DNA from: Polynucleobacter brandtiae
GTDB taxonomy: Bacteria; Pseudomonadota; Gammaproteobacteria; Burkholderiales; Burkholderiaceae
Direction: 5' to 3'
Assembly: GCF_002797575.1 (NCBI RefSeq)
Contig: NZ_PGTX01000004.1
Coordinates: 62,001 to 126,000, forward strand
Length of the DNA: 64,000 nucleotides
The notes below the pieces were generated by a model. It made no database searches, had not been told where the DNA came from, and saw only the letters and a program-made list of their open reading frames with translations. Shown here piece after piece: positions 48,325 through 64,000 of the stretch (position 1 is its first letter; each line of letters starts with the position of its first letter). The position numbers were made by a program, and so were the translations under genes.

Positions 48325-48414
<90 letters not shown>

Positions 48415-48457
48415 TAAAGTCTTTAAGTCCTTGATTAATATAGGTATTTTCCATAAA

Positions 48458-48480
48458 GTCCCGCCAGCAGCGGGGCTTTT
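48458..48480 (+). terminator. Terminator after tRNA-Ser
   Basis: A 7-bp stem GTCCCGC with GCGGGGC (one G-T pair) around CAGCA, then TTTT. It is the first part of repeat copy A; an improved copy recurs at 49752. Confidence 0.75.
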
Positions 48481-48573
48481 GCATTTCAAATTCTCTCTGC
48501 GTTTGCCTTAGCCCGTATTTTTAGCCTCATTCCTAGCTTTCTCTCAGAACGTCTTTTTGACGGTTTACTTAGG
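48459..48573 (+). repeat. 115-bp direct repeat, copy A, after tRNA-Ser
   Basis: This segment aligns without gaps to 49753-49867; by eye about 98 of 115 positions agree, and the last 40 bp (cattcc...acttagg) are nearly identical. It starts 44 nt after the CCA end of tRNA-Ser. Copy B has the same spacing to a decayed tRNA 3' end, so the repeated unit includes the tRNA end. Confidence 0.85.
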
Positions 48574-48677
48574 TTGTTTGCAGCTGCAAACAAGGCCTGA
48601 TTTCATCGCAAAATGTACGATGTGCCACAAATAAATTGAGTAGGATTTAAGCGTCTATCTTGCGCAAATTGCGCGAG

Positions 48678-49148
48678 TTAATTTGATTGCGTTTTTGACT
48701 CTTTGAGTAAAGTTTCCCAGTCATCAGGTGGATGACCTTTCCCTAGCATTTTGGAAAATACACGATAGGCATCATCCTTGCTTTCGTAAGCACGTTTAGT
48801 ATTTTCATCATTCACCCAGACATATACGATGATCTTGCTTGCTTCGTGATATCGAAAGAACAATCGATATTGTGCGAAGAATTTCGCTCTTAACCAGTGC
48901 TTATGATCCTCACCAAGTGTATTGCCTTGCCGATATACCGGTAGTGTTGGATCTTGTGGAATGACTTCGTATGCCAGTTTAAGAATGGCAGCCAATCGTT
49001 TGGCCGCATTTTTATTTTGATATGTTGCAGGATTCTTTTCTTTAAGCGAGGCGACTTCATTCGTTAGGACTTGAACTTGATCCAGAAACAAAGGGTGCGC
49101 AAAGATGCTCCAGCCTGCAATGATCAGAGGTGATGGCTTTGTAGAAAT
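48678..49148 (-). CDS. yhaV: YhaV-family toxin of a type II toxin-antitoxin system, apparent ATT start
   Basis: A RelE-superfamily ribonuclease toxin. The sequence aligns with E. coli YhaV over its whole length: GWSIFAHPLF at the N-terminus, NKNAAKRLAAILKL, YRLFFRYHEASKIIVYVWVNDENTKRAYESKDDAYRVFSKML, then GHPPDDWETL. The GWSIFAHP part lies upstream of the first usual start codon (TTG 49091). In frame with it, the only position after the stop and correctly spaced from GAGG is ATT 49148, giving 156 residues against 154 in E. coli. Either translation starts at ATT, or the start codon was lost and the toxin is silent. The antitoxin gene ends 2 bp upstream. Confidence 0.82.
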   Translation of the reverse strand: MSTKPSPLIIAGWSIFAHPLFLDQVQVLTNEVASLKEKNPATYQNKNAAKRLAAILKLAYEVIPQDPTLPVYRQGNTLGEDHKHWLRAKFFAQYRLFFRYHEASKIIVYVWVNDENTKRAYESKDDAYRVFSKMLGKGHPPDDWETLLKESKTQSN

Positions 49149-49150
49149 GA

Positions 49151-49483
49151 TTAAGCCTCATCATCTGGTAGGGGGGCCTCTAAATCAAACTGCACCTTGC
49201 CTACCAACAATTGCAGGCGTTCAACCCAGGCGCTATCGAGTGCTTGTAAGCGCTCGGGATGGGTGGTCAGATCATGGGATAAAAAATGGAGGAAGTGGCC
49301 CAATACTGGATCGTCAGACTTAGTCTCTTGCCCGCGACTCAACAGCACCTCTCCGTTGTCCAAAATGGCGTAATGCACCTTATCGCGCTTGCCCAGTTTT
49401 AATGCCTGACGAATAGGCTCGGGGACAGTCGTTTGATAGCGATCGGTTAGGGTAGATTCAGTTTCAAGTACGGCGGTAGGCAT
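49151..49483 (-). CDS. prlF: PrlF/SohA-family antitoxin
   Basis: The antitoxin partner of YhaV, with an AbrB-like swapped-hairpin DNA-binding N-terminus (ESTLTDRYQTTVPEPIRQALKLGKRDKVHYAIL) and an acidic C-terminus that binds the toxin. I set the start at the second of two adjacent ATG codons (49483), 7 nt after GGGAG, giving 110 residues. An ATG at 49519 would sit at the predicted transcription start without a ribosome-binding site. A 20-bp perfect palindrome overlaps the promoter and is the likely operator. The toxin gene follows 2 bp after the stop. Confidence 0.85.
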   Translation of the reverse strand: MPTAVLETESTLTDRYQTTVPEPIRQALKLGKRDKVHYAILDNGEVLLSRGQETKSDDPVLGHFLHFLSHDLTTHPERLQALDSAWVERLQLLVGKVQFDLEAPLPDDEA

Positions 49484-49526
49484 CATTTGGCTCCCGGAAA
49501 AAGTGAGAGAGGTATTCATAAGGTAA

Positions 49527-49555
49527 ATGGTAATGCAATTGCATTACCAAGTCAA
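49527..49555 (-). promoter_or_regulatory. Promoter and palindromic operator of prlF-yhaV
   Basis: On the minus strand TTGACT (49555-49550) and TACCAT (49532-49527) are 17 bp apart. The spacer is nearly filled by a perfect 20-bp palindrome at 49529-49548 (GGTAATGCAA and its complement). Autorepression by the antitoxin or complex is expected for this family; the exact binding site is inference. Confidence 0.7.
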
Positions 49556-49642
49556 TACCTGTCTACGGGAGAGAATTTGTGATTGTGAAAATATCCATAA
49601 GCTATTGTTTTTAAACAATAAAATTTGACTATGTAGGCATTA

Positions 49643-49708
49643 GGAGCTATAATGTAAAGGTGGGAATCTAGCTCGATACTGCGGGTTCGCGTCGTGATTG
49701 CTCCGCCA
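49643..49708 (+). pseudogene. Decayed tRNA remnant, repeat of the tRNA-Ser 3' end
   Basis: Bases 49684-49708 keep GGGTTCG and CTCCGCCA of the tRNA-Ser 3' end at the same 26-nt spacing, but the middle has changed and the T-stem no longer pairs well. GGAGC at 49643 could pair with GCTCC at 49700, giving a 66-nt tRNA-like outline with no usable D or anticodon arm. The CCA end is exactly 1294 bp after that of tRNA-Ser, the same distance as between the 115-bp repeats. It is probably an old attachment-site copy. Confidence 0.6.
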
Positions 49709-49751
49709 AGTAGTCTTAGTAATTTGCCTCTCAGCGCAAAATACCGCAGGA

Positions 49752-49774
49752 GCCCCGCCAACAGCGGGGCTTTT
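49752..49774 (+). terminator. Duplicate of the tRNA-Ser terminator
   Basis: A perfect GCCCCGC/GCGGGGC stem with loop CAACA followed by TTTT, within repeat copy B. It follows a decayed tRNA, so it may have no present client. Confidence 0.7.
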
Positions 49775-49867
49775 GCATTTCTAAATCTCTCTACGGTTGG
49801 TTTAATCCTATATTTTTGCCTCATTCCCAGCTTTCTCTCAGAACGTCTTTTTGACGGTTCACTTAGG
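49753..49867 (+). repeat. 115-bp direct repeat, copy B
   Basis: Gap-free partner of 48459-48573. It ends 13 bp before the stop of the convergent serine recombinase gene. The stretch 49556-49879 holds no gene, only this repeat, the terminator and the tRNA remnant. Confidence 0.85.
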
Positions 49868-49879
49868 GCTGGCTTTGGG

Positions 49880-51574
49880 CTAATTGATGCCCAGTATCTT
49901 GCGCTGCTCATCCCAATCATGAGGTAGTGGAAGTAATTGTTTTAAGGAGTTAGCTGTAAGTGTATGGGGTTGCTGGCCATTTAAGATTGCTCTGACAATA
50001 TCTGGAGCCAAGAAGGCGCGATGGATAGTGTTGGTGATGTAAGGCGTTGTTACACGCTCAGCTTTTGCAATCTCTGCGAGAGATTTAGCTTTTCCAGAGG
50101 TCAGTTGTTCTAACCAAGCTTGCCCCTTTTGAATCGATGCCACTAATACTGCATCTGCTGACTGTCTCTGAGATTGGTTACCCACTAATAATTTCATACC
50201 AAATCCGCAGCGCTCAATCTTGGCTTGGGTGGTGATAATCAGTTCGGATGCTTTAGTGGTCACTTTATTAGTCATATGATTCGGTTCCTCCTTAAGAAGA
50301 ACATGTGGCTTGATTGTTATTTGGATTTCATCTGGAAGCACTCTGACTCCACTTGCCAATCGATGAATCAATTCATAACGCTCTTTACCTTCTTGCTTGA
50401 CCAATTCAAGATGCTCATGGATGGATCGAATGAGTGTCTGAACTTGGTTTGACTCTGGCTGCAAAAAATCTAAGATACTGGTCTCATCAGTAAGCCAATT
50501 TTGCAGTTGATTGATCACTAAGGTTTCAAGTTCTTGAGCTGGGATGCGAATACCCTCTGGAGCTGCTTGTCTGCAATTGGTGATCAAGGGCTCCGATACA
50601 TAGTAACGATAGCGCTTACTTTTCTTTTGGCTATGTGATGGCACGAGCCGGTGGCCTTGCTCATCTACTACTAGACCTAAGAGCAAACTATCGGATGGCG
50701 CTGATTTACGCTTGTACTCACTTTGGCGATTGCTAAGCAACTGTTCTTGAGTGGCATCCCAAGTCCCCATGTCAATAATGGCTGGATGTTGACCTTCATA
50801 AATCTTGTCAATGTGAGCAATCTTGCCAATGTAGACGGGGTTGGTCAGAATTTTATAGAAATGCCCGCGGGAGAACGCTTTGCCTCCAAAGGTGCGTTCA
50901 GTAGAGGTGATACGTAGTGGGGTGGTGATCCCCTGGGCATCTAATTCGTATTTAAGGGTGCGAACATTTTTAAGAATCAGATACCGATCGTAAATATGGC
51001 GTACTAAATTAGCCTGCTCTTCATGAATAGCTAAAGTGCGATCTTTGGCCACATAACCCATATGCGGAGTACCACCCATCCACATTCCCTTCGCTTTAGA
51101 AGCGGCAATCTTGTCCCGAATGCGCTCACCCGTGACCTCTCTCTCAAACTGCGCAAAGGACAGAAGAACATTGAGCGTTAATCGCCCCATGGAGGACGTA
51201 GTATTAAATTGCTGGGTTACGGATACAAAGGAAACCCCCTTGGCATCAAACTGTTCCACAATCTTGGCAAAGTCCGCTAGCGACCTTGTTAGGCGATCGA
51301 CTTTATAGACAACGACGACTTGTACCTTCTTTTGATCAATGTCTAAAAGAAGTTGCGCCAGACCAGGGCGATCCATATTGCCACCTGAATATCCCCCATC
51401 ATCATAAAAGGTCGGAATCAGTTTCCAGCCTTCATGCTGCTGACTCTTAATAAAGGCCTCGCACGCTTCTCTTTGGGCATCAAGCGAGTTAAACCCTTGC
51501 TCGAGTCCCTCTTCGGAAGATTTACGGGTATAGATGGCGCATCGCAAACTACCCGTATTTATTTTGCTAGCCAT
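49880..51574 (-). CDS. Large serine recombinase (resolvase/invertase family)
   Basis: A site-specific recombinase likely to move the element. The N-terminal resolvase domain has the catalytic serine at position 19 in YTRKSSEEG, the GYSGGNMDRPGLAQLL and VYKVDRLTRS motifs, and ends with FAQFEREVTGERIRDKI. The recombinase domain follows (about 170-290, with HFYKILTNPVYIGK). The zinc-ribbon cysteines of many large serine integrases are not visible. The last 100 residues look like a helix-turn-helix tail (LAEIAKAERVTTPYITNTI). It starts directly after the DUF2924 stop (TAGATG). The order DUF3489-DUF2924-recombinase is a recurring proteobacterial module. Confidence 0.92.
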   Translation of the reverse strand: MASKINTGSLRCAIYTRKSSEEGLEQGFNSLDAQREACEAFIKSQQHEGWKLIPTFYDDGGYSGGNMDRPGLAQLLLDIDQKKVQVVVVYKVDRLTRSLADFAKIVEQFDAKGVSFVSVTQQFNTTSSMGRLTLNVLLSFAQFEREVTGERIRDKIAASKAKGMWMGGTPHMGYVAKDRTLAIHEEQANLVRHIYDRYLILKNVRTLKYELDAQGITTPLRITSTERTFGGKAFSRGHFYKILTNPVYIGKIAHIDKIYEGQHPAIIDMGTWDATQEQLLSNRQSEYKRKSAPSDSLLLGLVVDEQGHRLVPSHSQKKSKRYRYYVSEPLITNCRQAAPEGIRIPAQELETLVINQLQNWLTDETSILDFLQPESNQVQTLIRSIHEHLELVKQEGKERYELIHRLASGVRVLPDEIQITIKPHVLLKEEPNHMTNKVTTKASELIITTQAKIERCGFGMKLLVGNQSQRQSADAVLVASIQKGQAWLEQLTSGKAKSLAEIAKAERVTTPYITNTIHRAFLAPDIVRAILNGQQPHTLTANSLKQLLPLPHDWDEQRKILGIN

Positions 51575-51961
51575 CTATTTTTTCAAGCCAAAGAACACGG
51601 GTCCTGACCAGGCGGTCCCGGTAATCGCTTTAGCAATCGCCGATAAGCTCTTATAGATTTGATCCTCATGTAAGTACCCATCAGCCAGAACGGTGACTTG
51701 ATGAGTTTGATCTTTCCAGACCCGAATCAGGCGTGAGCCAATAGCGGGTTGATTGATGGAGATGGGTTTACCGGATTGCAACTGGCGTTTTTCACTACCG
51801 GATAATCCTCCCATCGCTTTGGCTTGAATTTGCCAAGCGATGGCACCGCGCAAAATATTTTCTCTAGCAAGGTGTGGGGCAGGCACTTCAAAGAGCACCT
51901 GCCATTCTTTAGCCAGTTCTGCGCGGCTCATCGCTTGCAGTTCTTGTAGGGCTGCTTTCAT
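51575..51961 (-). CDS. DUF2924 family protein
   Basis: A 128-residue protein of a family found beside serine recombinases; function unknown. Family marks are MSRAELAKEWQVLFEVPAPHLARENILRGAIAWQIQ, then SRLIRVWKDQTHQVTVLADGY and a closing YKSLSAIAKAITGTAWSGPVFFGL, a segment that resembles a DNA-modifying or DNA-binding module. It overlaps the DUF3489 gene by 4 bp (ATGA) and touches the recombinase start, so all three are co-translated. A role as recombination directionality or accessory factor is inference. Confidence 0.85.
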   Translation of the reverse strand: MKAALQELQAMSRAELAKEWQVLFEVPAPHLARENILRGAIAWQIQAKAMGGLSGSEKRQLQSGKPISINQPAIGSRLIRVWKDQTHQVTVLADGYLHEDQIYKSLSAIAKAITGTAWSGPVFFGLKK

Positions 51962-52341
51962 ATTTTGGATTGGGTAATTTGATACATATAGATGCCATCT
52001 ACTGTGTGCCGCACTATATGGAGTCCTAATTTTTTACGTAAGGTTCCGCTGATATACCCCCGGATCGAGTGGGCTTGCCATCCAAGAGTGTGCATTAGCT
52101 CCTCTAGGCTTGAGCCTTGAGGCTGGCTCAGTAAATCAATACATTGGGATTGTTTGGTCGGCTTTAGCAAGCGAGGGGGTGTGATTGATGATGGAGCTGA
52201 GGATGCCGCTGATGTAACCACTGCCTTCTTAAGAGATTTGGCGGCAACCTTTTTCTGAGGTTGCGCCATCTCAGGAGTGATGACTTTTGGTGTTGGCAGC
52301 TTGAGTATTGGTTTGGTAGTTTTTGATAATACAACTCGCAT
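51958..52341 (-). CDS. DUF3489 family protein
   Basis: A 127-residue protein: a basic, Lys/Ala/Pro-rich N-terminal half, then a winged-helix-like part, CIDLLSQPQGSSLEELMHTLGWQAHSIRGYISGTLRKKLGL, typical of DUF3489. It probably binds DNA. It opens the three-gene recombinase operon; ATG 52341 follows AGGAGCC, the same sequence used by the methyltransferase gene of this element. A strong hairpin ends right before that site. Confidence 0.85.
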   Translation of the reverse strand: MRVVLSKTTKPILKLPTPKVITPEMAQPQKKVAAKSLKKAVVTSAASSAPSSITPPRLLKPTKQSQCIDLLSQPQGSSLEELMHTLGWQAHSIRGYISGTLRKKLGLHIVRHTVDGIYMYQITQSKI

Positions 52342-52350
52342 AAAGGCTCC

Positions 52351-52386
52351 TGGTGTTGATATTTCCCTATTGAAATAACAACACCA
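52351..52386 (-). promoter_or_regulatory. Leader hairpin before the DUF3489-DUF2924-recombinase operon
   Basis: TGGTGTTG pairs with CAACACCA (8 bp) and, after a 2-nt internal loop, ATTTC with GAAAT (5 bp). On the minus strand the hairpin ends at the Shine-Dalgarno GGAG. It may be an RNA switch or a protein-binding palindrome. Confidence 0.5.
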
Positions 52387-52506
52387 GTAACGCTCTGAAG
52401 AGCCACAAGATCAAGTCAATTAGCCCCTAAACCCAAACTTATTTACTTGACTTGTAGGTATGGCTATGGACGGTGTTTGAGGTCATAGCAAAGTGCCTTG
52501 TTAGTC

Positions 52507-53952
52507 TTAGTCTGCTAATTTGGCCCATATCATCATGGCGCGATTACCCCTTTGACGCAAGTGCGCTAAAGCTTGCGATGTGGCATCGACTTGATCGTCA
52601 TAGCGCGTTCCAGGAAAGGTTAAGAGCTCATGCTCAAAGGCTTCTAACCAAGGCGCCTGATTGGGTAAGTACACCAGGCCAGCCTCAAAAAGATCAGACA
52701 CCGCATGTAGACGCATCACTTTATCGGTACCCGCTGGAGGTACGTAGGGCACAATTTTGTAGCGATACATTTGCTGAAGTTCTTGGATCAAAGAGGTGCC
52801 CGAGGATTTATCCTCGATCACAATCGGACGAGGCTCAAATTGCTCTGCTTTTTCAATCACCCGCTTTTTAAGGGTGGGGTAGTCTAGTTTCTCGCGATGG
52901 ACATCTAAAATATAGTAGTGCTCCTCAATCATCATTACGGTTACGCATACGCTGTAGTCGTTCAGATCACCGGCTTTATGAGCGGTATCCCAGCTTTGGA
53001 TTGTCATGGATATGCCTTCAGGCAAAGGCTGCTCCTTGTCATAACGCATGATCCAGTTCGATTTAATAATCGATCCACCAACTGGGCTGGGGTTTTGTTG
53101 ATATTGACTGGAGAAATTGAAGTTTCCAATTCGCGCTTTGGTTGCCTTGAGCATCTCAATTGTTTCACGCTCAGAATGCAAGGGCTCACCTTCCTGGCGT
53201 TGCCAAGAGCGGGTACCTAGTAAATCGGTAATCTCAAATAGTTCGTCTTGCTCGGCGATGGCCGGAAGATTGAGTACCGTCCAATTTCCATGTTCTAGCG
53301 CATGACCGACTAAATCATCTTGATGTAAGCGCTGCATGATCAAAATAATACAGCCGTTCTTTTTATCGTTTAAGCGACTCAGTAGGGTGTTGTCATACCA
53401 ATCATTGACAGATTGGCGCCGGGTTTGAGAGAGGGCATCATCGGGTTTCATGGGATCGTCTAAGATAATAAAATCGGCTCCGCGACCAGTTAATACGCCT
53501 CCTACGGAAGTAGCCATACGGCCGCCTCCTTTGGTAGTCATAAAGTCATTGACCGCCATCTTTCTAGGATCGAGCCTTGTAGCAAAGAGGGTTTGATAAA
53601 AAGTACTTTGCATGAGTTTGCGAGACTCTAGTGCTAGGTTATCGGCTAGGTCTTGACCATACGAGGCGCAGATAATGCGCGCCGAAGGATCATGCGCTAG
53701 TAGCCAGGCAGGCATGCAGACCGAAGCGCAGTGGGACTTGAGGTAACGCGGCGGCAAATTAATAATCAGGCGCTTAGTTATACCAGTGCGGCAATTTTCT
53801 AAATGCGTCCCAATTAAGTAAATATAGGGCGCCAGTAGCAATTGCGTTTGAGGGTTGAGCTCATAAAAGGCGCGCTCGGTAAAAGTGACAAAGTCATTAC
53901 GTATGATGGTGCGATATTCTTGTTGCGTTATTTGGATGGTGGTGTCATTCAT
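52507..53952 (-). CDS. terL: Phage terminase large subunit
   Basis: The ATPase-nuclease that cuts and pumps DNA into phage heads. The 481-residue product has a Walker A-like NLPPRYLKSH (residues 65-74), ATPase motif FIILDDPMKPDD near 155, and an RNase H-like nuclease with QSWDTAHKAGD near 320, VIEDKSSG near 395 and DDQVDATSQAL near 455. All are intact, so it looks functional. It overlaps the DUF5681 gene by 4 bp. No portal, protease, capsid or tail gene is nearby, which is unusual for a phage remnant with an intact terminase. Confidence 0.92.
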   Translation of the reverse strand: MNDTTIQITQQEYRTIIRNDFVTFTERAFYELNPQTQLLLAPYIYLIGTHLENCRTGITKRLIINLPPRYLKSHCASVCMPAWLLAHDPSARIICASYGQDLADNLALESRKLMQSTFYQTLFATRLDPRKMAVNDFMTTKGGGRMATSVGGVLTGRGADFIILDDPMKPDDALSQTRRQSVNDWYDNTLLSRLNDKKNGCIILIMQRLHQDDLVGHALEHGNWTVLNLPAIAEQDELFEITDLLGTRSWQRQEGEPLHSERETIEMLKATKARIGNFNFSSQYQQNPSPVGGSIIKSNWIMRYDKEQPLPEGISMTIQSWDTAHKAGDLNDYSVCVTVMMIEEHYYILDVHREKLDYPTLKKRVIEKAEQFEPRPIVIEDKSSGTSLIQELQQMYRYKIVPYVPPAGTDKVMRLHAVSDLFEAGLVYLPNQAPWLEAFEHELLTFPGTRYDDQVDATSQALAHLRQRGNRAMMIWAKLAD

Positions 53953-54404
53953 GAAAAGCCTTTCTTCTCAGGTTCTGCAGTTGGGGTAGGGAGTTGGCCT
54001 TGTAAGCGCCGCATTAAGTTTTGCATCACTTGGCGATCTTCTTGTGGAAGGGTTTCAATGACTGAGGGAGCCTTGAGAGCCTCTTGATATTCGTGCTGCT
54101 GTGATACGCCTAGTACAAGGTTAGCGGCCCTGTGGTCTCCCGCCATCGCTTTATTGACCATCTGCTTGGCAATTACTTCACCTTTTTTGACTGTTTTGCT
54201 TCGCCCGTTTTCATTAATGGTGATAGTAGACTTGAGCTCCTCAACCAAAATAGTTTGTAAGCTGCGCGAACCTGTCGGACGCCCCTTGGGATTGCCGCTC
54301 TTACCCTTTTTAAATTGGGTTTTTTTGGGTGGGCTACGATACCCCACGCGGTAGGCAGCATTGTTAACATTGTTAGCATTATTGAATTGATCGGGTTTAG
54401 ACAT
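53949..54404 (-). CDS. DUF5681 family protein (terminase-associated)
   Basis: A 151-residue protein with the DUF5681 signature YRSPPKKTQFKKGKSGNPKGRPTGSRSL near residues 22-50, a basic DNA-contacting loop, then helices with VKKGEVIAKQMVNKAMAGDHRAANLVL. Such proteins are typically encoded next to large terminases and may act as the small terminase or DNA-recognition subunit; this is inference from position. The N-terminus has an Asn-rich stretch from AT-rich repeats. It overlaps terL by 4 bp and the methyltransferase gene by 8 bp. Confidence 0.85.
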   Translation of the reverse strand: MSKPDQFNNANNVNNAAYRVGYRSPPKKTQFKKGKSGNPKGRPTGSRSLQTILVEELKSTITINENGRSKTVKKGEVIAKQMVNKAMAGDHRAANLVLGVSQQHEYQEALKAPSVIETLPQEDRQVMQNLMRRLQGQLPTPTAEPEKKGFS

Positions 54405-55803
54405 GACTTGCTTTCGCTTTGGCTTCCAATGCTTCAGTTACTGCATTAGCTTTCATACGCTCCTCAAAGCGTTTATTTGATGCTGCGTGGATAGCGGCTT
54501 GCCCAGTAATTTCTTGCCAGCGGGTAATCGCGAGATCCACGTACGCTGGAGAGAGCTCTACTCCATAGCAAATACGACCCGTGCGCTCACTCGCAAGAAG
54601 TGTGGTGCCGCTACCCAAAAAGGGATCGAGAACAAACTCGCCGCGTGCCGAGCAATCCAAAATCGCATCTACAACGAGATTAATCGGCTTAACAGTTGGG
54701 TGCATTGCTAAGAGGTCGCCTTCATGACCTTGGCGAGTCAATGTGTTGGCACCTGCGTACTGCCACACATTGGTGCGATAGCGCCCATGTTTGCCCAGCT
54801 CGACATTATTGCGGTGAGGACTTTTACCATTTTTAAACACCAAGATAAGCTCATGTTGACTGCGATATAGTGATCCCATGCCGCCTTTATCTTTGACCCA
54901 GACGCAGATGTTCTTGAGCTCTGTATAGGCACTCAAGCCTGCCGTATGAATCTCTGGAAGATGACGCCAGTCCATACACACATAATGAATTGAACCTGCT
55001 TTGCTATGGCTCGCCAGTAAGTTTAGTGAGCGCTCTAAAAACTGGGTGAATTCACTAGAGCTCATCTCGCCACTGGCCATCGCAAATTCGGGATGTTTGG
55101 GCTGAGTGATCTGTGCCATTAACTTTTTGCCATCATCGCTTTGATTGCTTTTATTATTTCGCCTGCCACTCACGTGTCCTTCAATGGGTACATTAAAGGG
55201 TGGATCGGTAAAAATGAGACCTGCTTTTTTGCCCGCCATAAGCCTTTCAAATGTGGTTTCTTCTAACGCTGAGCCGCAGATCAGCCGATGCTTACCTAAA
55301 AGCCACAGATCGCCTAGCGCACTGACTGGTTTGGTGGGTACTGGCGGGAGTGTATCTTCTGCAGAAGCAGCAGTAAGACTCTCAAAGCCGGAAATATGTA
55401 GATCAATCTCTCCCATCGAAAAACCAGTGTCTTCTAGGTTAAAGCTCAAATCCAAATTACTGAGTTCTAAGAAAATTTCCCCTAATAGCGCTTCGTCCCA
55501 GGAGGCATTTTCGGTTAGGCGGTTATCGGCAATCGCAAAGGCTTTGGCTTGCTCTTTGGTAAGGTGATCGAGTGTAATGACCGGAATTTGCGGCAGGTCT
55601 AAAAGCTTGGCAGCTTCGACTCGGCCGTGGCCGCAAAGTATTTGATGACTGGCATCAATCAGTATAGGGACATTAAAGCCAAAGGCCTGAATGCTTTTGG
55701 CAATCTGACGTATCTGCTGTTTGCTATGAATCCGAGCATTGCGCGGATCGGCTTGTAATTCGCTGGGTAATTTAAAGCTGGTGTTTGGTAAAGCGGATTT
55801 CAT
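54397..55803 (-). CDS. ParB-domain / DNA adenine-type methyltransferase fusion
   Basis: A 468-residue protein in two parts. Residues 8-100 are a ParB/Srx-like nuclease-fold domain (LQADPRNARIHSKQQIRQIAKSI, ILCGHGRVEAAKLL). Residues 165-455 are a DNA methyltransferase of the beta order, with the catalytic DPPF at 200-203, AMHPTVKP, and the AdoMet loop FVLDPFLGSGTTLLASE near 395. DPPF suggests N6-adenine or N4-cytosine methylation. No restriction enzyme is present. It begins the operon with DUF5681 and terL, using AGGAGCC as ribosome-binding site. It may mark element DNA for packaging or protection (inference). Confidence 0.9.
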   Translation of the reverse strand: MKSALPNTSFKLPSELQADPRNARIHSKQQIRQIAKSIQAFGFNVPILIDASHQILCGHGRVEAAKLLDLPQIPVITLDHLTKEQAKAFAIADNRLTENASWDEALLGEIFLELSNLDLSFNLEDTGFSMGEIDLHISGFESLTAASAEDTLPPVPTKPVSALGDLWLLGKHRLICGSALEETTFERLMAGKKAGLIFTDPPFNVPIEGHVSGRRNNKSNQSDDGKKLMAQITQPKHPEFAMASGEMSSSEFTQFLERSLNLLASHSKAGSIHYVCMDWRHLPEIHTAGLSAYTELKNICVWVKDKGGMGSLYRSQHELILVFKNGKSPHRNNVELGKHGRYRTNVWQYAGANTLTRQGHEGDLLAMHPTVKPINLVVDAILDCSARGEFVLDPFLGSGTTLLASERTGRICYGVELSPAYVDLAITRWQEITGQAAIHAASNKRFEERMKANAVTEALEAKAKASHV

Positions 55804-55883
55804 AAAGGCTCCTTTTTTGGGAAATTAAGGAACCTTTGTACGGAAAAAATTAAGCCATGTCTAAAGGAGGTAACCCCCTGTGA

Positions 55884-56516
55884 TTAGGGTGGGGTTTTCT
55901 CCTTTTGCTTATGAAACTCTTCTATGGCACGTTTTGCAAAATGCTCGGGGCTACCTTCAACCTCGAGTATTCCAAAGACATCCGTCACCAGCCTTAAAAA
56001 ATCACTGCTCGCTGGATGCCCTTCTAATATGGAGTCGACCTGAATAGTTGGCGGTTTAGCAGTTAGTTGACGATAGTTGCCAGCCAAACTCTTAGCTAGG
56101 TCAAGAGCCCTAAATTTTGCGGGGCGGCCTCCCGTGTTTGGTTGCTGTCCATCATTATTGTCGTGTAGTGATTCCAGGGCGTCATGAATGGTGGCAATCA
56201 TTTTCTGGCAGGCCGATCGCAGATCACTTCTGGCAGATTTACCAGGAATTGCCAAAATCGTGCTTTGATGAATTTGCGTGAGGTAATGCTCTAAATCGGT
56301 AGTTTTGCTCAGCAGGCGTTGTAATTCAACGTTGACTACAGCAGGCTTTTTAATAAAATTATTGGGAAAGGGTAGATGAACAACCCCGCTCATTTGCTGG
56401 GCTAAAAATCCAATATATCGATCAAGATATTCGTGGCGCTCGTCCAGTATTGGGAGGCGTGCAAAAGCTTGAGTTAGTTCTAAGATGAGTTGCGTTGAGG
56501 ATTTTTTGGGGTTCAT
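55884..56516 (-). CDS. Uncharacterised protein of the mobile element
   Basis: I do not recognise this 210-residue protein. It is soluble with no signal peptide. A TGGRPAKF motif near residue 129 recalls short basic linkers of DNA-binding phage proteins, and the C-terminal half is mostly helical. It lies 80 bp upstream of the methyltransferase gene on the same strand and could be the first gene of that operon. Position suggests a regulatory or packaging-accessory role, but sequence does not show one. Confidence 0.65.
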   Translation of the reverse strand: MNPKKSSTQLILELTQAFARLPILDERHEYLDRYIGFLAQQMSGVVHLPFPNNFIKKPAVVNVELQRLLSKTTDLEHYLTQIHQSTILAIPGKSARSDLRSACQKMIATIHDALESLHDNNDGQQPNTGGRPAKFRALDLAKSLAGNYRQLTAKPPTIQVDSILEGHPASSDFLRLVTDVFGILEVEGSPEHFAKRAIEEFHKQKEKTPP

Positions 56517-57156
56517 TGGATGTGTTGATCGTCGTACAGCATAGGTTCTCTTTGTATGATTTCGAGATTGTCAGGTATTTTCATTAATCTTGATTATGCG
56601 AGATTTGAGCTCATGAATAAAATATTCACATGATGAGGATAGTGGTATTTCTGTTGTTGAAAGATTAGCAAGTTTTCGTATTAATCATAGCTCCAAAAAA
56701 TTAAAAATGACTTATCAAAGAGATCCAAAATAAAATCAGGGTAAAACCATCTGTACTTGGTGTCTCATGTTTTATCGTTATGTCATAACTTACAGGCGCC
56801 AACAATCTGGGTTAGTTGACTGAAAATATTTAAAACCATATTTAAGCTTTGCAAATATATCTATTTATGCCCCGAATAAATTAATTTAGCCCGTTAAGAG
56901 TCGCATCCTTAGGTTATGTTGTACATAATTAAAACTATGTAGTAACTATTAAGTGCTTGGGTTGCAACGTTAATCAACGAGCATCTTACTCAGTTGGGCT
57001 AATTTAACTTCATCGCTGTAAATTTGACATTTTTATCTCCCAGGCAATCTGTATTAAGTTGACTATTTATTTATCTAAAGCAAATATGTGTTTATGAGGA
57101 AATAACTAATATTTTCGATTAATCAAATAACCTTAATTTAGATAGGAAAATTTATT
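56517..57156. other. 640-bp A+T-rich gap without a gene
   Basis: Strongly A+T-rich, between divergent transcription units. One 36-codon frame without a start codon (about 56615-56730) is open but resembles no protein I know. Promoter-like TTGACA (57024) and TTGACT (57059) have poor -10 partners. I see no tRNA, no repeat of the tRNA-Ser end and no insertion sequence. It probably holds the right end of the element. Confidence 0.5.
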
Positions 57157-58131
57157 ATGGATTTATCGGCCGAACCCCCAGAAATTATTCTTGCAGGAGT
57201 TTTAAGAAAGATCGATGGCGCCTATTCACCAAATACTTTACGTGCTTATAAGGCTGATTTTCTAGAATTTATTCGATTTTGTAATGAACGAGAGTTGCCG
57301 CCTTTGCCGGCAAGCTATGAGGCGCTAGCCTTGTTTATAGACAAAAACGTCGAAAGGGGCTGCAGTGTGAACTTTATTAAGCGCAAAGTTAGTGCAATTG
57401 CGTCAATTCATAAATTTTGCCGCTTTTCTAACCCCGCCCATGATGTTGATGTGCAACTCGCATTACGACGCATGGCTAGAAAAAATGGACGACTTAACAA
57501 GCAAGCTTACGGTTTAAATAGAAATTTATTTGAAGATTTAATGAATGCAACAGGCGATGATATTCTTGGCAAGCGCGATAGGGCGCTTTTGCAGTTAGGT
57601 TATTCCAGTCTATGTCGCCGTCACGAATTAGTGGAGCTATTAGCACAAGACATTAAGCATAACGAAGATGGATCTGTGCTGCTACATCAACGAGCAAGCA
57701 AGATGGATACCTTAAGACGGGGCAGATGGATATATCTTCCTCCTGAAGTGTGGGTAGATGTACAGATTTGGCTCGAGGCTGCGCAAATTAAAGAGGGGCC
57801 AATTTTGAGGGGTATAAGGCGTGGTGGTCAGGTAATGATGGAAGCTTACGGACCAGGCGCAATTAATCGAACATATAAACGCCTAGCTAGAAAAGCAGGA
57901 TTTGATGAGGCACTGGTAGCTGAATTAACGAGTCACTCGACTAGGGTTGGGGCTGCGCAAGAGTTATTGAGAACAGGGGCATCACTTTTGCAGGTTATGC
58001 AACGTGGTGGCTGGGGCTTACCGCAAAGCGTCCTTAAATATGTGAAAAATGCGGATATGGTTCATGAATACCCCACTTGGCGCAAAAAATACTTTGAAGA
58101 TTCTGGGCAAGCCTCGCCTATAGAAAAATAG
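57157..58131 (+). CDS. Tyrosine recombinase / phage-type integrase
   Basis: A 324-residue site-specific recombinase. The N-terminal SAM-like domain spans residues 20-110 (SPNTLRAYKADFLEFIRFC). The catalytic set is visible: Arg154 or 155 in SLCRRHELVEL, Lys182, His260-x-x-Arg263 in HSTRVGAAQELL, Trp286 in the fifth position, and nucleophile Tyr295 in SVLKYVKN. It is closer to XerC/D-like enzymes than to long phage integrases. No excisionase or clear attachment site is beside it. It may belong to the element on its left or mark the polysaccharide island on its right. Confidence 0.88.
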   Translation: MDLSAEPPEIILAGVLRKIDGAYSPNTLRAYKADFLEFIRFCNERELPPLPASYEALALFIDKNVERGCSVNFIKRKVSAIASIHKFCRFSNPAHDVDVQLALRRMARKNGRLNKQAYGLNRNLFEDLMNATGDDILGKRDRALLQLGYSSLCRRHELVELLAQDIKHNEDGSVLLHQRASKMDTLRRGRWIYLPPEVWVDVQIWLEAAQIKEGPILRGIRRGGQVMMEAYGPGAINRTYKRLARKAGFDEALVAELTSHSTRVGAAQELLRTGASLLQVMQRGGWGLPQSVLKYVKNADMVHEYPTWRKKYFEDSGQASPIEK

Positions 58132-58381
58132 CTCAAGAAGGTTGCATTTTTCCGAAAATAATCCCTCCCTGATGGTATTTTTGTGGCTCGACCCCTTTTT
58201 TTGGCTGACTGCACTGATTTTTAACGGTGTTTACCATTTTTTACTTTTAATGAACTTAAAGGTTATTAGGGGTTATTGCTAATGTGGGTAATGGTCTAGC
58301 TTACGATGGAGGCGTTCTTTTTTTGAACAAGAAGACTATAAATGTTAGAATTATTTCATGTATAGCCAGTTTTCATTAAAA

Positions 58382-58395
58382 CTACCAAACGGTAG
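58382..58395 (+). promoter_or_regulatory. Small hairpin before the EPS regulator gene
   Basis: CTACC and GGTAG form a 5-bp stem around AAAC, 9 bp before the start codon. The core CGGTAGC matches part of the ops element (GGCGGTAGC) that recruits RfaH to polysaccharide operons, but the flanks do not match. The rest of 58132-58404 holds nothing recognisable. Confidence 0.3.
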
Positions 58396-58404
58396 CCAAT
58401 AAAC

Positions 58405-58788
58405 ATGTCCCCTGGAGAGATCCAACTTCAAGTGTTGCGCGCCATTGAGTCAAATCCTGAGCTCACTCAGCGCCAGTTAGCCTGCGTCTTAGGTGTGAGC
58501 TTGGGCAAGGCTCACTATTGTGTGAAAGCGTTAGTGGGTAAAGGTTTGGTCAAAATGGGAAACTTTAGCCACAGTCAGAAAAAATTGGGTTACGCTTACT
58601 TATTAACCCCCAAGGGCATTAAAAGCAAAGCAGCACTGACGGCTCATTTTTTACAGCGTAAGATGGCCGAATATGAAGAATTACGCCAAGAAATTGAGTC
58701 CGCAGCTAAGGATTCAAGGGTTAAGAAGTCTCAATTGGGGGGGGGGGGGCTTAAAAAGCCTGCCTCTGAACTTGTAACCCATAAATGA
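58405..58788 (+). CDS. MarR-type EPS-associated transcriptional regulator
   Basis: A 127-residue winged-helix regulator that belongs to the MarR-like group found at the head of exopolysaccharide clusters. The helix-turn-helix is in residues 5-55 ([40 protein letters not shown]), followed by the wing and a dimerisation helix (residues 80-105). A run of 13 G bases encodes the Leu-Gly-Gly-Gly-Gly tail near residue 112; slippage would change the last 15 residues but not the DNA-binding part. It precedes ugd and probably controls the locus. Confidence 0.85.
58737..58749 (+). repeat. 13-G homopolymer inside the EPS regulator gene
   Basis: Thirteen consecutive G bases, 39-51 bases before the stop. 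With 12 G the frame ends after about 12 other residues (at a TAA 8 codons after the run); with 14 G it stops almost at once. This is a slippage-prone tract. Confidence 0.9.
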
Positions 58789-58952
58789 ACATCAAGACCA
58801 GGGTGAGTATAAAAATCAAGCAAGGATCTGCGTTTAAATGGGGCGGAACTGTTACTCAGGATACTGGTCGAGAGCGGGCATTAGCGGGCGCAAGCAATTC
58901 AATCAATTCAAAAACAAGTAGCTTAGGCGCTTATCAACAAAAGAAAGTCTTC

Positions 58953-60119
58953 ATGAAGATCGCAGTTGTCGGAACCGGTTATGTGGGATTATCCAATGCA
59001 ATCTTGCTCTCTCAACATCATGAAGTGGTTTCTTTAGATATCGTTCCGCAGCGAGTAGATTTGCTAAATCGTCGAGCGTCACCAATTGCAGATGTCGAGA
59101 TTGAGGAGTATCTCAAAACCAAGCCCTTAAATTTAAAGGCCACTTTAAATAAAGAAGAGGCCTATGTGGGGGCTGATTTTGTCATTATTGCTACACCTAC
59201 AGATTACGATGAAGTAACGAACTACTTTAATACCGGATATATTGAAGCAGTAGCGCGTGATGTCATGGTAATCAATCCCAATGCAGTGATGGTGATTAAA
59301 TCGACTATTCCAGTGGGATATGTAGAGCAACTGCGCAAGAAACTCAATTATCAAAACATTATTTTTTCACCAGAGTTTTTGCGTGAAGGTAGAGCGCTTT
59401 ACGATAACTTACACCCCTCACGCATTGTGGTGGGTGAGCAGTCAGAGCGTGCCAAAGTCTTTGCGGATTTACTGCAAGAAGGTGCGATTAAGAAAGATGT
59501 TCCAACGCTTTTTACCAATCCAACGGAAGCTGAGGCGATCAAACTTTTTGCTAATACGTACTTAGCGATGCGAGTGGCCTACTTTAATGAATTAGATACC
59601 TATGCCGCCATCCATGGTTTGGATACACGTCAGATTATTGAAGGTGTTGGTTTAGACCCACGAGTAGGACCTCATTACAACAATCCTTCCTTTGGTTATG
59701 GCGGCTATTGTTTGCCAAAAGACACCAAGCAGTTATTGGCTAATTATCAAGATGTGCCGCAAAACTTGATGCAAGCCATTGTGAATTCGAACTCAACGCG
59801 CAAAGACTTTATTGTGCAGGATATTTTGGCGCGCAATTCGAAGGTAGTTGGTATTTATCGCTTAATTATGAAAGCAGGCTCAGACAATTGGCGAGCTTCG
59901 AGTATTCAGGGAATTATGAAGCGCCTCAAGGCCAAGGGAATTGAAGTAATTGTGTATGAACCCATCTTAGGTCAAAAAGAATTTTTTAACTCCGAAGTCC
60001 TGGATGATTTGGATATATTTAAAGAACGAGCTGACTTAATTGTTTCCAATCGTTTAGTCGATGAGTTAAATGACGTGACAGCAAAGGTTTACACGCGCGA
60101 TTTATTTGGGGGAGATTAA
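58953..60119 (+). CDS. ugd: UDP-glucose 6-dehydrogenase
   Basis: Oxidises UDP-glucose to UDP-glucuronate for exopolysaccharide. The 388-residue product equals the E. coli Ugd in length and is very similar throughout. It has the NAD loop [27 protein letters not shown], the [22 protein letters not shown] block and the catalytic cysteine in [16 protein letters not shown] chose ATG 58953; the open frame extends 56 codons upstream to an ATG that overlaps the regulator stop, but that extension is unlike the family and has no ribosome-binding site. Confidence 0.94.
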
Positions 60120-60140
60120 GCCCTAGGGATCATAAATATT

Positions 60141-61094
60141 ATGCAAATCTACAATAAACATCAAAAAATTCTCATTACTGGCGGCGCTGGTTTTCTTGGC
60201 TCCCACTTAACGGAAAGGCTGCTTAAAGAGGGTAATGAGGTTTTGGTGGTCGATAATTTCTTTACCGGCACCAAGCACAACCTATCCCATTTGCTGGGCA
60301 ATCCTAACTTAGAGGTGCTGCGTCACGATGTGACTTTTCCGCTCTATGTAGAAACGGACCAAATTTACAACCTCGCTTGCCCAGCATCTCCTGTGCATTA
60401 CCAATATGATCCAGTGCAAACTACCAAGACTAGCGTGCATGGGGCTATCAATATGTTGGGCTTGGCAAAAAGAACGCGTGCTCGCATTTTGCAAGCTTCA
60501 ACTAGCGAGGTGTATGGTGATCCAGAAGTGCATCCTCAGCCAGAAGAGTATTGGGGTAAGGTAAATCCGATTGGTATTCGTTCTTGCTATGACGAGGGTA
60601 AGCGCTGCGCGGAAACTCTATTTTTTGATTACAACCGCCAACACAATCTTGACATCAAAGTCGTGCGAATCTTTAATACCTACGGCCCACGTATGCATCC
60701 CAATGATGGCCGGGTAGTGAGTAATTTCATTGTCCAGGCACTACAAGGCAAAGACATCACTATTTATGGTGATGGTCACCAAACCAGAAGCTTTTGTTAT
60801 GTTGACGACCTCATCGATGCCATGGTGCGAATGATGAATTCGGAGGATGGCTTTACGGGCCCGGTCAATATTGGTAATCCAGGTGAGTTCACGATTCTGC
60901 AATTAGCAGAAATAGTAATTAAGCTCACTGGTAGTAAATCCAACATTGTTCATCAGGCTTTACCATCGGATGATCCTAAGCAACGCCAACCCAATATTGA
61001 TTTGGCTAAAGTAAAGCTGGGTTGGGAGCCTAAGGTCACTCTTGAAGATGGCCTTAAAGAGACGATTGCGTACTTTAGGAAGTTTGGCGGTTGA
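60141..61094 (+). CDS. UDP-glucuronate decarboxylase (UDP-xylose synthase)
   Basis: Converts UDP-glucuronate, the product of the preceding gene, to UDP-xylose. The 317-residue extended short-chain dehydrogenase has [12 protein letters not shown] for [27 protein letters not shown] and the catalytic Tyr-x-x-x-Lys in [13 protein letters not shown]. The [21 protein letters not shown] stretch is typical of this family. It lies 21 bp after ugd, so both belong to one polysaccharide operon, and xylose or a derived sugar is probably in the polymer. Confidence 0.92.
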
Positions 61095-61111
61095 GATTAA
61101 CGTTTTTTTGA

Positions 61112-62167
61112 ATGAAAATTATGAATATACTTCTTACTGGAGGTGCTGGATATATTGGTAGCCATACCGCATTAGCATTATTAAATGCTGGCCATACTCC
61201 AATATTGCTTGATAATTTTAGCGCTAGCGACCCAAAAATTTTAACTCTTCTTAAAGCTGCTGCTAAAAAAGATATTCTTTTTTACGAAGGCAATGTTGGC
61301 AATCAAACATTAATTAGGCAAATTTTAAAAGAACATTCAGTAGATGTGGTTATGCATTTTGCAGCATTTAAGGCAGTTGGCGAATCAGTAAAAAATCCTT
61401 TGGCATATTATAAAAATAATGTAAGCGAATTTGTTAATTTACTTTCGGCAATGGATGCAGAAAAGGTCAGGAATCTAATCTTTTCGAGTAGCTGTACCGT
61501 TTATGGAAATCCTGTGCGTTTACCTGTATCAGAGGATTTTTCGTATGGATTTAACAACCCATATGGACATACAAAGGTAGTATGCGAGCAAATACTTGAG
61601 TCGGTATGCGTCTCTAATAAGGGTTGGAAAGTTGGCAAACTCAGATATTTTAATCCTGTAGGCTCTCATGATTCAGGTTATTTCGGCGAACTTCCTGTTG
61701 GTCTGCCCTCTAATTTAATGCCATATCTTGATCAAGTCGCCAGTGGCGAAGTTCAGAAACTGTATATTTTTGGTGGCGATTACCCAACTGGAGATGGGAC
61801 ATGCATTAGAGATTATGTTCATATATCTGACCTTTCTGAAGGGCATATTGCATCACTTGAAGGCCTTATCAAAGTTGGGAGTCACGCCGTAAATCTTGGT
61901 ACGGGGATTGGTTATAGCGTGCTTGAAGTAGTTGCTGAGTATGAAAGAGTAACTAGAAAAAAAATTCCTTACGAAATTATTGGTCGCCGACCAGGGGATG
62001 TGCCTGCTGCTTTTGCGGACCCATCTATGGCTTTCCAAGTTTTGGGATGGAAGGCGAAAAGAAGTTTAGGGGAAATGTGCTTAAGTAGTTATAGCTGGAG
62101 AATGCAATTGCCGACTTTGCTGTCATCATGTAACTTAGCACCAATCGGAATATCTCCTCTTGAATAA
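61112..62167 (+). CDS. galE: UDP-glucose 4-epimerase with altered C-terminus
   Basis: Interconverts UDP-glucose and UDP-galactose. The 351-residue product shows LLTGGAGYIGSHTALALL, FSSSCTVYGNP and the catalytic NPYGHTK with Tyr and Lys, then RYFNPVGSHDSG and GDGTCIRDYVHISDL. The last 20 residues (from about 332) do not fit the usual end of GalE (a tryptophan-rich WxxQxxNPxGY segment) and look like a replaced tail. Starts at 61112 or 61121 are both possible. Base composition is more A+T-rich than the two preceding genes. It overlaps the next gene by 8 bp. Confidence 0.88.
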   Translation: MKIMNILLTGGAGYIGSHTALALLNAGHTPILLDNFSASDPKILTLLKAAAKKDILFYEGNVGNQTLIRQILKEHSVDVVMHFAAFKAVGESVKNPLAYYKNNVSEFVNLLSAMDAEKVRNLIFSSSCTVYGNPVRLPVSEDFSYGFNNPYGHTKVVCEQILESVCVSNKGWKVGKLRYFNPVGSHDSGYFGELPVGLPSNLMPYLDQVASGEVQKLYIFGGDYPTGDGTCIRDYVHISDLSEGHIASLEGLIKVGSHAVNLGTGIGYSVLEVVAEYERVTRKKIPYEIIGRRPGDVPAAFADPSMAFQVLGWKAKRSLGEMCLSSYSWRMQLPTLLSSCNLAPIGISPLE

Positions 62168-63917: not shown

Positions 63918-64000
63918 CTATAAGTGTAGAAAAACTGGTGCTAGATAATACATTTGTCCTAGCTGATGTCCAATTCCTAGATCGGCAAAGTATTGATCCT
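63914..64000 (+). CDS. Start of an unknown gene, cut by the window end
   Basis: An open frame of 29 codons from ATG 63914, which overlaps the ABC transporter stop as ATGA. It reads MTISVEKLVLDNTF and onward without a stop. Coupling shows it is in the same operon. The fragment is too short to place in a family. Confidence 0.6.
   Translation, partial: MTISVEKLVLDNTFVLADVQFLDRQSIDP

Follow-up and report, generated by a model that had tools for sequence, protein, structure and literature searches.

A tRNA-Ser island of Polynucleobacter brandtiae with a phage-type packaging operon and no capsid genes may be a motor-only satellite

The stretch of DNA considered here (the window, 64,000 nucleotides at its full length) comprises positions 62,001 to 126,000 of contig NZ_PGTX01000004.1 in the 2.0-Mb genome of Polynucleobacter brandtiae (assembly GCF_002797575.1; G000:C4:62001-126000 in our genome collection). 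At 49880-56516 it carries seven intact minus-strand genes, including that of a large terminase subunit (TerL), and Pfam and PHROG scans find no capsid gene among them. Here we argue that this block is, with reasonable likelihood, the core of a tRNA-Ser genomic island that combines a large serine recombinase with a phage-derived packaging operon of its own, has no capsid and would act as a motor-only satellite. Comparison with relatives in the genus shows that such islands lie between the 3' end of the tRNA (CCGCCA) and a conserved right end, and that they recur with exchangeable cargo, in tandem, and with empty counterpart sites; the target, the ends, the exchange and the conservation of the motor can all be read from these alignments. 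The island is more likely to be a passenger carried by phages than the remnant of a virus. The core consists of the following features:

49880-51574, minus strand: large serine recombinase (integrase); Pfam Resolvase 2e-38 and Recombinase 8.8e-13, phrog_95 integrase 7.9e-99
51575-51961, minus strand: DUF2924, recombinase partner gene; Pfam 1.1e-36
51958-52341, minus strand: DUF3489, first gene of the recombinase operon; Pfam 4.5e-20
52352-52385: palindromic operator-like site ahead of the recombinase operon; 34-nt palindrome kept in genus modules
52507-53952, minus strand: TerL, large terminase subunit; phrog_38 3.9e-109, Terminase_6C 2e-19
53949-54404, minus strand: DUF5681, candidate small terminase subunit (role by position); Pfam 4.5e-25
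54397-55803, minus strand: fusion of a ParB-like part with an N6/N4 DNA methyltransferase (N6_N4_Mtase); Pfam 1.4e-25, phrog_498 4.2e-120, phrog_620 ParB-like 1.9e-43
55884-56516, minus strand: Orf210, seventh core gene, an orphan of 210 aa; identity 65% in G470 and 48% in G480

A preceding reading of the letters alone (the sequence-only reading) had proposed two compact minus-strand operons, one with the methyltransferase fusion, DUF5681 and TerL (below, the trio) and one with DUF3489, DUF2924 and the recombinase; all these genes are found in that place and orientation, and the best Pfam E-values of the six, from 2e-38 (Resolvase) to 2e-19 (Terminase_6C), are far from chance. The ParB_N match is weak (6.9e-5, below the Pfam cut-off), and the ParB part is backed by phrog_620. 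Orf210 has zero Pfam or PHROG matches. The overlaps of 4 to 8 bp that had been reported exist between the methyltransferase and DUF5681 (8 bp), DUF5681 and TerL (4 bp) and DUF3489 and DUF2924 (4 bp), whereas DUF2924 and the recombinase merely abut; the AGGAGCC ribosome-binding sequence does precede both operon starts. As had been claimed, head, tail and lysis families other than TerL are absent among the seven proteins in both scans. The statement that no replication gene is present holds for the block itself but not for the wider element, since a relative (element A below) has a DnaB-like helicase gene adjoining the same core. Ahead of DUF3489, the 34-nt palindrome matches the copy in genome G470 at 27 or more of 34 positions in 8/8 genus recombinase modules examined. 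The earlier reading had left out Orf210, the tRNA-Ser gene, a YhaV-PrlF pair, a 117-nt repeat and the place of the block as the left part of a larger element.

Islands between a tRNA-Ser gene and a conserved right end

A search for TerL in 121 genomes of the genus (cut-off 1e-30 or better) gave eight matches in six genomes. Seven of them (the window, G470, G480, G435, G439 twice and G019) lie together with the DUF3489-DUF2924-recombinase module and with the methyltransferase and DUF5681. The eighth, on contig C30 of G019 (38% identity), is accompanied neither by a recombinase nor by DUF2924 or DUF5681, and the genes after it encode portal, scaffold and major head proteins; it lies in an ordinary prophage and serves as a control. 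DUF2924 itself occurs in 9/121 genomes, and in G511, G490 and G508, which have it without such a TerL, the four fetched loci are DUF2924-recombinase pairs lacking the trio. Thus, the unit proposed in the sequence-only reading does recur with defined ends, that is, with the same gene set, shared ends at different sites and no capsid genes, and neither confinement to full prophages nor random deletion is seen as far as this sample goes, with seven of eight TerL genes in the gene set and the frames intact.

The insertion site and the flanking features of the window are as follows:

48325-48414, plus strand: tRNA-Ser(CGA), the integration target (ARAGORN)
48409-48414, plus strand: CCGCCA, attachment core, the last 6 nt of tRNA-Ser; element junctions of relatives lie directly after CCGCCA
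48415-49708: mini-element, 1,294 bp between CCGCCA copies (at 48409 and 49703), with the YhaV-PrlF pair and without recombinase
48678-49091, minus strand: YhaV toxin gene; Pfam PF11663, E 1.5e-58
49151-49519, minus strand: PrlF antitoxin gene; Pfam PF15937, E 9.4e-39
49709-49879: left end of the serine-recombinase element, from an alignment of 11 left ends
56517-64000: variable right part, inferred cargo (tyrosine recombinase, MarR-like regulator, UDP-sugar dehydrogenase, epimerase, ABC transporter); similarity to G470 and G480 stops at Orf210

In five of the seven elements, the recombinase gene ends 153-160 nt from the tRNA-Ser gene, which is of the CGA type in G470, G480 and G435 and of the GGA type in contig C21 of G439 and in G019. 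In the window, the mini-element intervenes and the distance grows to 1,466 nt; in contig C11 of G439 it is 7,502 nt, with catabolic-type genes (named by eye) in between. On the other side, seven right ends, that of the window's genome included, align over about 70 nt; one of them has CCGCTA. Beyond the right ends, the flanks resemble sites that carry no element: the right flank of the G435 element matches the 3' flank of a tRNA-Ser gene in G031, in register, at 39/51 positions, and G493 tRNA-Ser 3' flanks match, likewise in register, the flanks of the arrays in G439:C11 (48/53) and G470 (70/77). In each of these three comparisons, 0/300 shuffles gave as good a match. For the G439:C21 element, no match was found among the CGA tRNA-Ser sites compared.

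The exchange of parts is clearest in the elements of G435 (A) and G439:C21 (B), which are both 26.9 kb long and occupy tRNA-Ser genes of the CGA and GGA type, respectively. They come from different species (one genome represents each species in the collection), and serS DNA of the two genomes is about 76% identical over 140 nt aligned. A and B share 17,325 bp, comprising the cargo half and the right end, at 99.3% identity, and this identity stops at CACCGCCA. It begins just past the seventh gene, so that the recombinase, TerL and the methyltransferase lie outside the shared stretch; the core halves match in pieces only (86% over 1,361 bp, 66-71% elsewhere). With one half near-identical and the other diverged, recent exchange of the cargo half together with the right end is one explanation, and replacement of the core is the other.

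The elements also stand in tandem. G439:C11 has two right ends, and the left end of a second element adjoins the first of them; the tRNA and the first right end are 29.5 kb apart, and the second element (22.8 kb) has a recombinase module and glycosyltransferase genes, with TerL not found in it. G470 and G480 have the compact seven-gene form seen in the window, after tRNA-Ser(CGA), and the DNA similarity of the window to G470 ends at the start of Orf210. The G470 element is 31.3 kb long; in tandem with it lies a 4.4-kb unit (L113:14154-18514) between two right ends, with a peroxidase-family gene and no recombinase seen.

What varies is the cargo, in the slot between the two operons and to the right of the core. 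The slot holds genes in G435, G439:C21 and G019 and none in G439:C11, G470 and G480. In A, it contains a D12-methyltransferase, a DndB-like gene and an unknown gene, and the right side has genes for a DnaB-like helicase, HTH and WYL proteins, type I hsdM/S/R, a C5 methylase, HNH and GHKL proteins; among the 19 non-core open reading frames (ORFs) of at least 90 aa in this element, none has a head or tail family, and portal and major capsid genes are absent. All three slots scanned with PADLOC gave matches: PD-Lambda-5_B, along with other methyltransferase models, and a weak DndB in A, PDC-S06 in B and PDC-S11 in G019, where hsdM and hsdS lie on the far side of the element. No relaxase family was found in the window core or in A, most cargo of the other elements not having been scanned.

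The element to which the window's block belongs is also larger than the block. The term minimal element used in the sequence-only reading is not supported, as the block forms the core of islands that measure about 27-31 kb in the relatives and probably at least 29 kb here, with polysaccharide genes inside; it looks compact because the 165 bp between its operons hold no gene, as is the case in three of the six relatives. A direct repeat of the tRNA end was sought in the right flank within the window and not found, and the right end is absent from the window and from the next stretch. In this genome, it lies on contig C6, next to recQ and 314 bases from the contig end, where it aligns with the six others; recQ directly follows tRNA-Ser in L068-L070 and G019:C33, and contig C4 terminates in insertion-sequence-like ORFs (named by eye). 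The recQ neighbourhood suggests that C4 and C6 join, and, because the matching right end lies beyond them on C6, the polysaccharide genes are probably cargo. More than one tandem element may possibly be involved. Between the core and the polysaccharide genes, an AT-rich stretch holds a tyrosine recombinase gene (57157-58131) not shared with G470 and G480. At 58737-58749, near its 3' end and just ahead of the UDP-sugar dehydrogenase gene, the MarR-like gene contains a run of 13 G that could vary in length.

The mini-element next to the tRNA is flanked by a 117-nt direct repeat (48457-48573 and 49751-49867, 85% identical). The CCGCCA copies at 48409 and 49703 are 1294 nt apart, which is precisely the spacing of the repeat copies, and the mini-element is thus best described as two left ends in tandem. 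A similar YhaV-PrlF unit of 1.27 kb is found at tRNA-Ser(CGA) in G503; its outer flank resembles the sequence after tRNA-Ser in L072, itself possibly an element's left end, so that this flank may be native or the end of another element. According to the alignment of ends, the right ends of the mini-element units are unlike those of the large elements.

The packaging genes within and beyond the genus

The claim that TerL has kept its catalytic motifs is borne out by 11/11 aligned homologues, in which K72, D165, D166, D322, E380, D453 and D456, which we take to be ATPase and nuclease residues, are invariant. The ratio of nonsynonymous to synonymous substitution rates (dN/dS) of TerL is 0.05-0.06 in two of three pairs, at high dS, and not estimable in the third; several pairs of the dN/dS comparison had a dS that was high or could not be estimated. 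Of the genes that could redirect packaging, TerL is present, and DUF5681 is a candidate small terminase (TerS) by its position. A structure model of DUF5681 (predicted local distance difference test score, pLDDT, 81) has two matches at E 0.001 or better in a library of viral structures, namely the DUF5681 protein of Leptospira phage LE4 and an unnamed protein. For DUF2924 (pLDDT 85), there is no match in the Protein Data Bank (PDB) at that threshold.

The gene set extends well beyond the genus. Viral contigs were scanned twice (600 candidates, best 80 kept each), and the resulting 146 loci are best matches and not a random sample. TerL is present in 136 of these loci and is joined by a recombinase-module gene in 92 of the 136, commonly in the order methyltransferase, DUF5681, TerL, (DUF3489), DUF2924, serine recombinase or in a divergent form. 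The PHROG scan of the module loci took in 150 non-core ORFs, the longest of the 171 that reach 100 aa, drawn from 61 of 89 loci, and no portal, head or capsid family was among the best 25 of 120 families; in the control loci (60 of 313 ORFs), portal families top the list. When 408 control ORFs were compared by phmmer with 259 ORFs of module loci, structural-type matches appeared in L187 only (one of 92 loci), and the five other matched ORFs were, by PHROG, one helicase-like, one methyltransferase and three without a match. In a quick tree of 141 TerL sequences, 92 of 95 module-linked rows fall into one group of 112 rows (support 89), and the module label changes 15 times along the tree versus 39 times on average when shuffled. 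Exact terminal repeats, as in circular contigs, were found in none of 147 loci, that is, the 146 viral-contig loci and a human faecal contig deposited as a phage. This faecal contig carries the recombinase, DUF2924 and the trio, DUF3489 not being found in it. A second human faecal contig deposited as a phage (L336, MT837927.1) has the DUF2924-recombinase pair without the trio. PMC8361208 deals with virus-like particle sequencing from children; MT839917 is not named in the passages on it, and a link to the faecal contigs would be a guess.

In the phylum, the DUF2924 model matches 74/398 genomes, and 40 loci were fetched, one each from 40 of the 74. All 40 have a recombinase beside DUF2924, and four have the trio. 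A tRNA gene lies within 600 nt of the recombinase end in 14 of the 40, always facing the recombinase, and it is tRNA-Ser in three of the four trio loci and tRNA-Gln in seven of the other 11 cases. DUF2924-recombinase pairs without the trio (L294-L333) are common in the phylum, often ending at tRNA-Gln or tRNA-Arg. Among the 86 viral loci with a strong recombinase match (in 49 of them, the sequence extends 300 nt or more past it), eight have such a tRNA, which is tRNA-Ser in five. Apparently, DUF2924 and its serine recombinase form a broad class of tRNA-targeting recombinases.

Satellite, reused terminase, defence cassette or decayed prophage

If the island is indeed a motor-only satellite, the following life cycle can be envisaged. 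The recombinase, together with DUF2924 and DUF3489, would excise the island and insert it at tRNA-Ser; the ParB-methyltransferase would mark or license island DNA; DUF5681 would serve as the small terminase and TerL as motor and nuclease, so that island DNA would be cut and then pumped into procapsids of a helper phage. The cargo (restriction-modification, candidate defence, surface polysaccharide and toxin-antitoxin genes) would make the island worth keeping for the host. A parallel for a methyltransferase as a packaging mark is found in phage P1, whose pac cutting depends on methylation. Satellite-like traits include the DnaB-like helicase of A, the PADLOC-matched slots and the faecal contig that was deposited as a phage and contains the trio. 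That terminase genes in an element suggest mobilization by phages is stated in a passage of PMC11389934.

Several observations weigh against this scenario. No pac or cos site could be identified, and neither packaging nor excision nor a helper has been observed. Four of the six carrier genomes, that of the window included, have no Pfam match to Phage_portal or the HK97 capsid and therefore no resident helper of such a kind. Recent movement appears to cover just the cargo half and right end of A and B, possibly by homologous exchange. The window's copy has its left end inside the window, whereas its right end, with an outer flank that matches none of the native tRNA flanks compared, lies on the separate contig C6; the stretches searched in G480 and G019 yielded no right end. 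In the PDB, nothing matched the DUF5681 structure model at E 0.001 or better, and a DUF5681 sequence model failed to detect the small terminases annotated in two phages whose TerL is related, Roseobacter phage CRP-901 and Idiomarinaceae phage 1N2-2. Among the phage-collection matches listed, the best TerL identity is 42% (the faecal contig) and the next is below 38%. Finally, the TerL group has a support of only 89 in a quick tree and includes 20 rows without a seen recombinase, among them the Sphingobium and G398 loci with flanks of 9-12 kb.

A terminase reused for another purpose is the foremost alternative, albeit an unlikely one: TerL and DUF5681 would cut or process element DNA during excision, replication, resolution or transfer (e.g. 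transformation), with the methyltransferase protecting it and a capsid never being involved. The four carriers without portal and capsid matches, the adjacency of a methyltransferase to a nuclease in the elements, and a wide spread with few or no head genes seen are all in line with this possibility. Still, the presumed ATPase residues of TerL are kept along with the nuclease ones, and cutting alone would need no motor; helper phages need not be resident; and phage packaging modules usually have a small ORF that overlaps TerL (two examples among the phages compared).

It is more doubtful still that the methyltransferase-DUF5681-TerL operon is a defence or restriction-like cassette carried by a recombinase island. 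Restriction-modification and PADLOC-matched genes surround the trio in the relatives, no recombinase was detected with the trio of a Sphingobium plasmid (L006) or with that of G398 (L017), and in L004, a short contig, the trio lies beside an hsdR-like ORF. Nevertheless, the linkage between trio and recombinase spans deep TerL divergence, and the trio is kept in all seven genus elements found via TerL while other cargo changes, a regularity that is partly built in, as the search began from TerL; the second element of G439:C11 has a recombinase module without TerL.

Ordinary prophage decay leaving a packaging operon and an integrase, to which the phage homologues of all named parts and the DUF2924-recombinase pair of phages AcaML1 and WO could point, is rejected as very improbable, considering that separate insertions share gene set, order and ends, the frames are intact and dN/dS is low, the module-linked TerL sequences group together, and A lacks head and tail families among the 19 non-core ORFs of its 26.9 kb.

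Known systems and the place of motor-only islands

Among known mobile elements, staphylococcal cassette chromosome (SCC) elements offer one parallel: they use large serine recombinases and a fixed site at the 3' end of a gene, form tandem composites and include recombinase-free members. The islands share with them the serine recombinase, the 3'-end site and the tandem arrays, but SCC elements insert in rlmH by means of ccr genes, whereas the target here is tRNA-Ser; to our knowledge, SCC elements have no terminase. In phage AcaML1 and in Wolbachia phage WO, which is a full phage, DUF2924 lies directly ahead of the recombinase, as it does here. AcaML1 further resembles the islands in a protein of the ParB-methyltransferase type (40% identity) and in a DUF3489 match, but differs in its portal, capsid and tail genes and in an annotated gpA-type terminase that the TerL model misses. 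The relaxase gene that would mark a conjugation-type mobilizable element is lacking in the window core and in A.

Phage-inducible chromosomal islands (PICIs), including the Staphylococcus aureus pathogenicity islands (SaPIs), and capsid-forming PICIs (cf-PICIs) resemble the islands as integrated elements with phage-type packaging genes. We know of no TerL in PICIs other than cf-PICIs, and of no capsid genes of its own in P4. According to a passage of PMC10690885, some SaPIs encode TerS, cf-PICIs encode TerS and TerL, and P4 uses the terminase of its helper. The cf-PICIs add portal and capsid genes, whereas the islands have TerL without capsid genes (neither portal nor major capsid genes are found in the window core or A) and combine it with a serine recombinase and a methyltransferase. 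Phage-inducible chromosomal minimalist islands (PICMI), which are described as being without capsid-remodelling genes, and for which a passage of PMC10803314 reports that homologues of terS, sid and ppi were not identified, resemble the islands, as does P4, in lacking capsid genes of their own; the difference is that TerL is encoded here. Tycheposons are described in a passage of PMC10872708 as cargo-carrying islands at tRNA genes, and they and virion-encapsidated integrative mobile elements (VEIMEs) are named in PMC10803314 as transduced islands, many of them perhaps satellites. The tRNA border is alike; however, tycheposons and VEIMEs are described with tyrosine recombinases in passages of PMC10872708 and PMC10187409, whereas the conserved recombinase here is of the serine type and the tyrosine recombinase at 57157-58131 is not in the shared gene set. 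The element, neither a cf-PICI nor a tycheposon as described in PMC10872708, may work like a phage satellite. A literature search on the gene names and on capsid-less satellites with TerL, with the original tycheposon and VEIME papers outside its scope, found no description of such an element; DUF5681 came up in one paper and DUF2924/DUF3489 in four.

It can further be envisaged, as a conjecture that we hold to be evenly balanced, that motor-only elements are an old and widespread class, in which a serine recombinase acting at tRNA genes is joined to a complete, dedicated packaging motor and a methyltransferase that load DNA into the shells of other phages or, at the extreme, in which the motor is used without a shell. 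TerL must dock on a portal, and a motor-only element, if real, would reveal the extent to which motors and capsids can be combined. It would also mean that large cargo, such as polysaccharide, restriction and defence genes, could move between bacteria, and it would explain short 'viral' metagenome contigs that have a terminase and no capsid gene. The combination of tRNA-Ser, CCGCCA, the right end and the gene set provides a signature by which such elements could be found.

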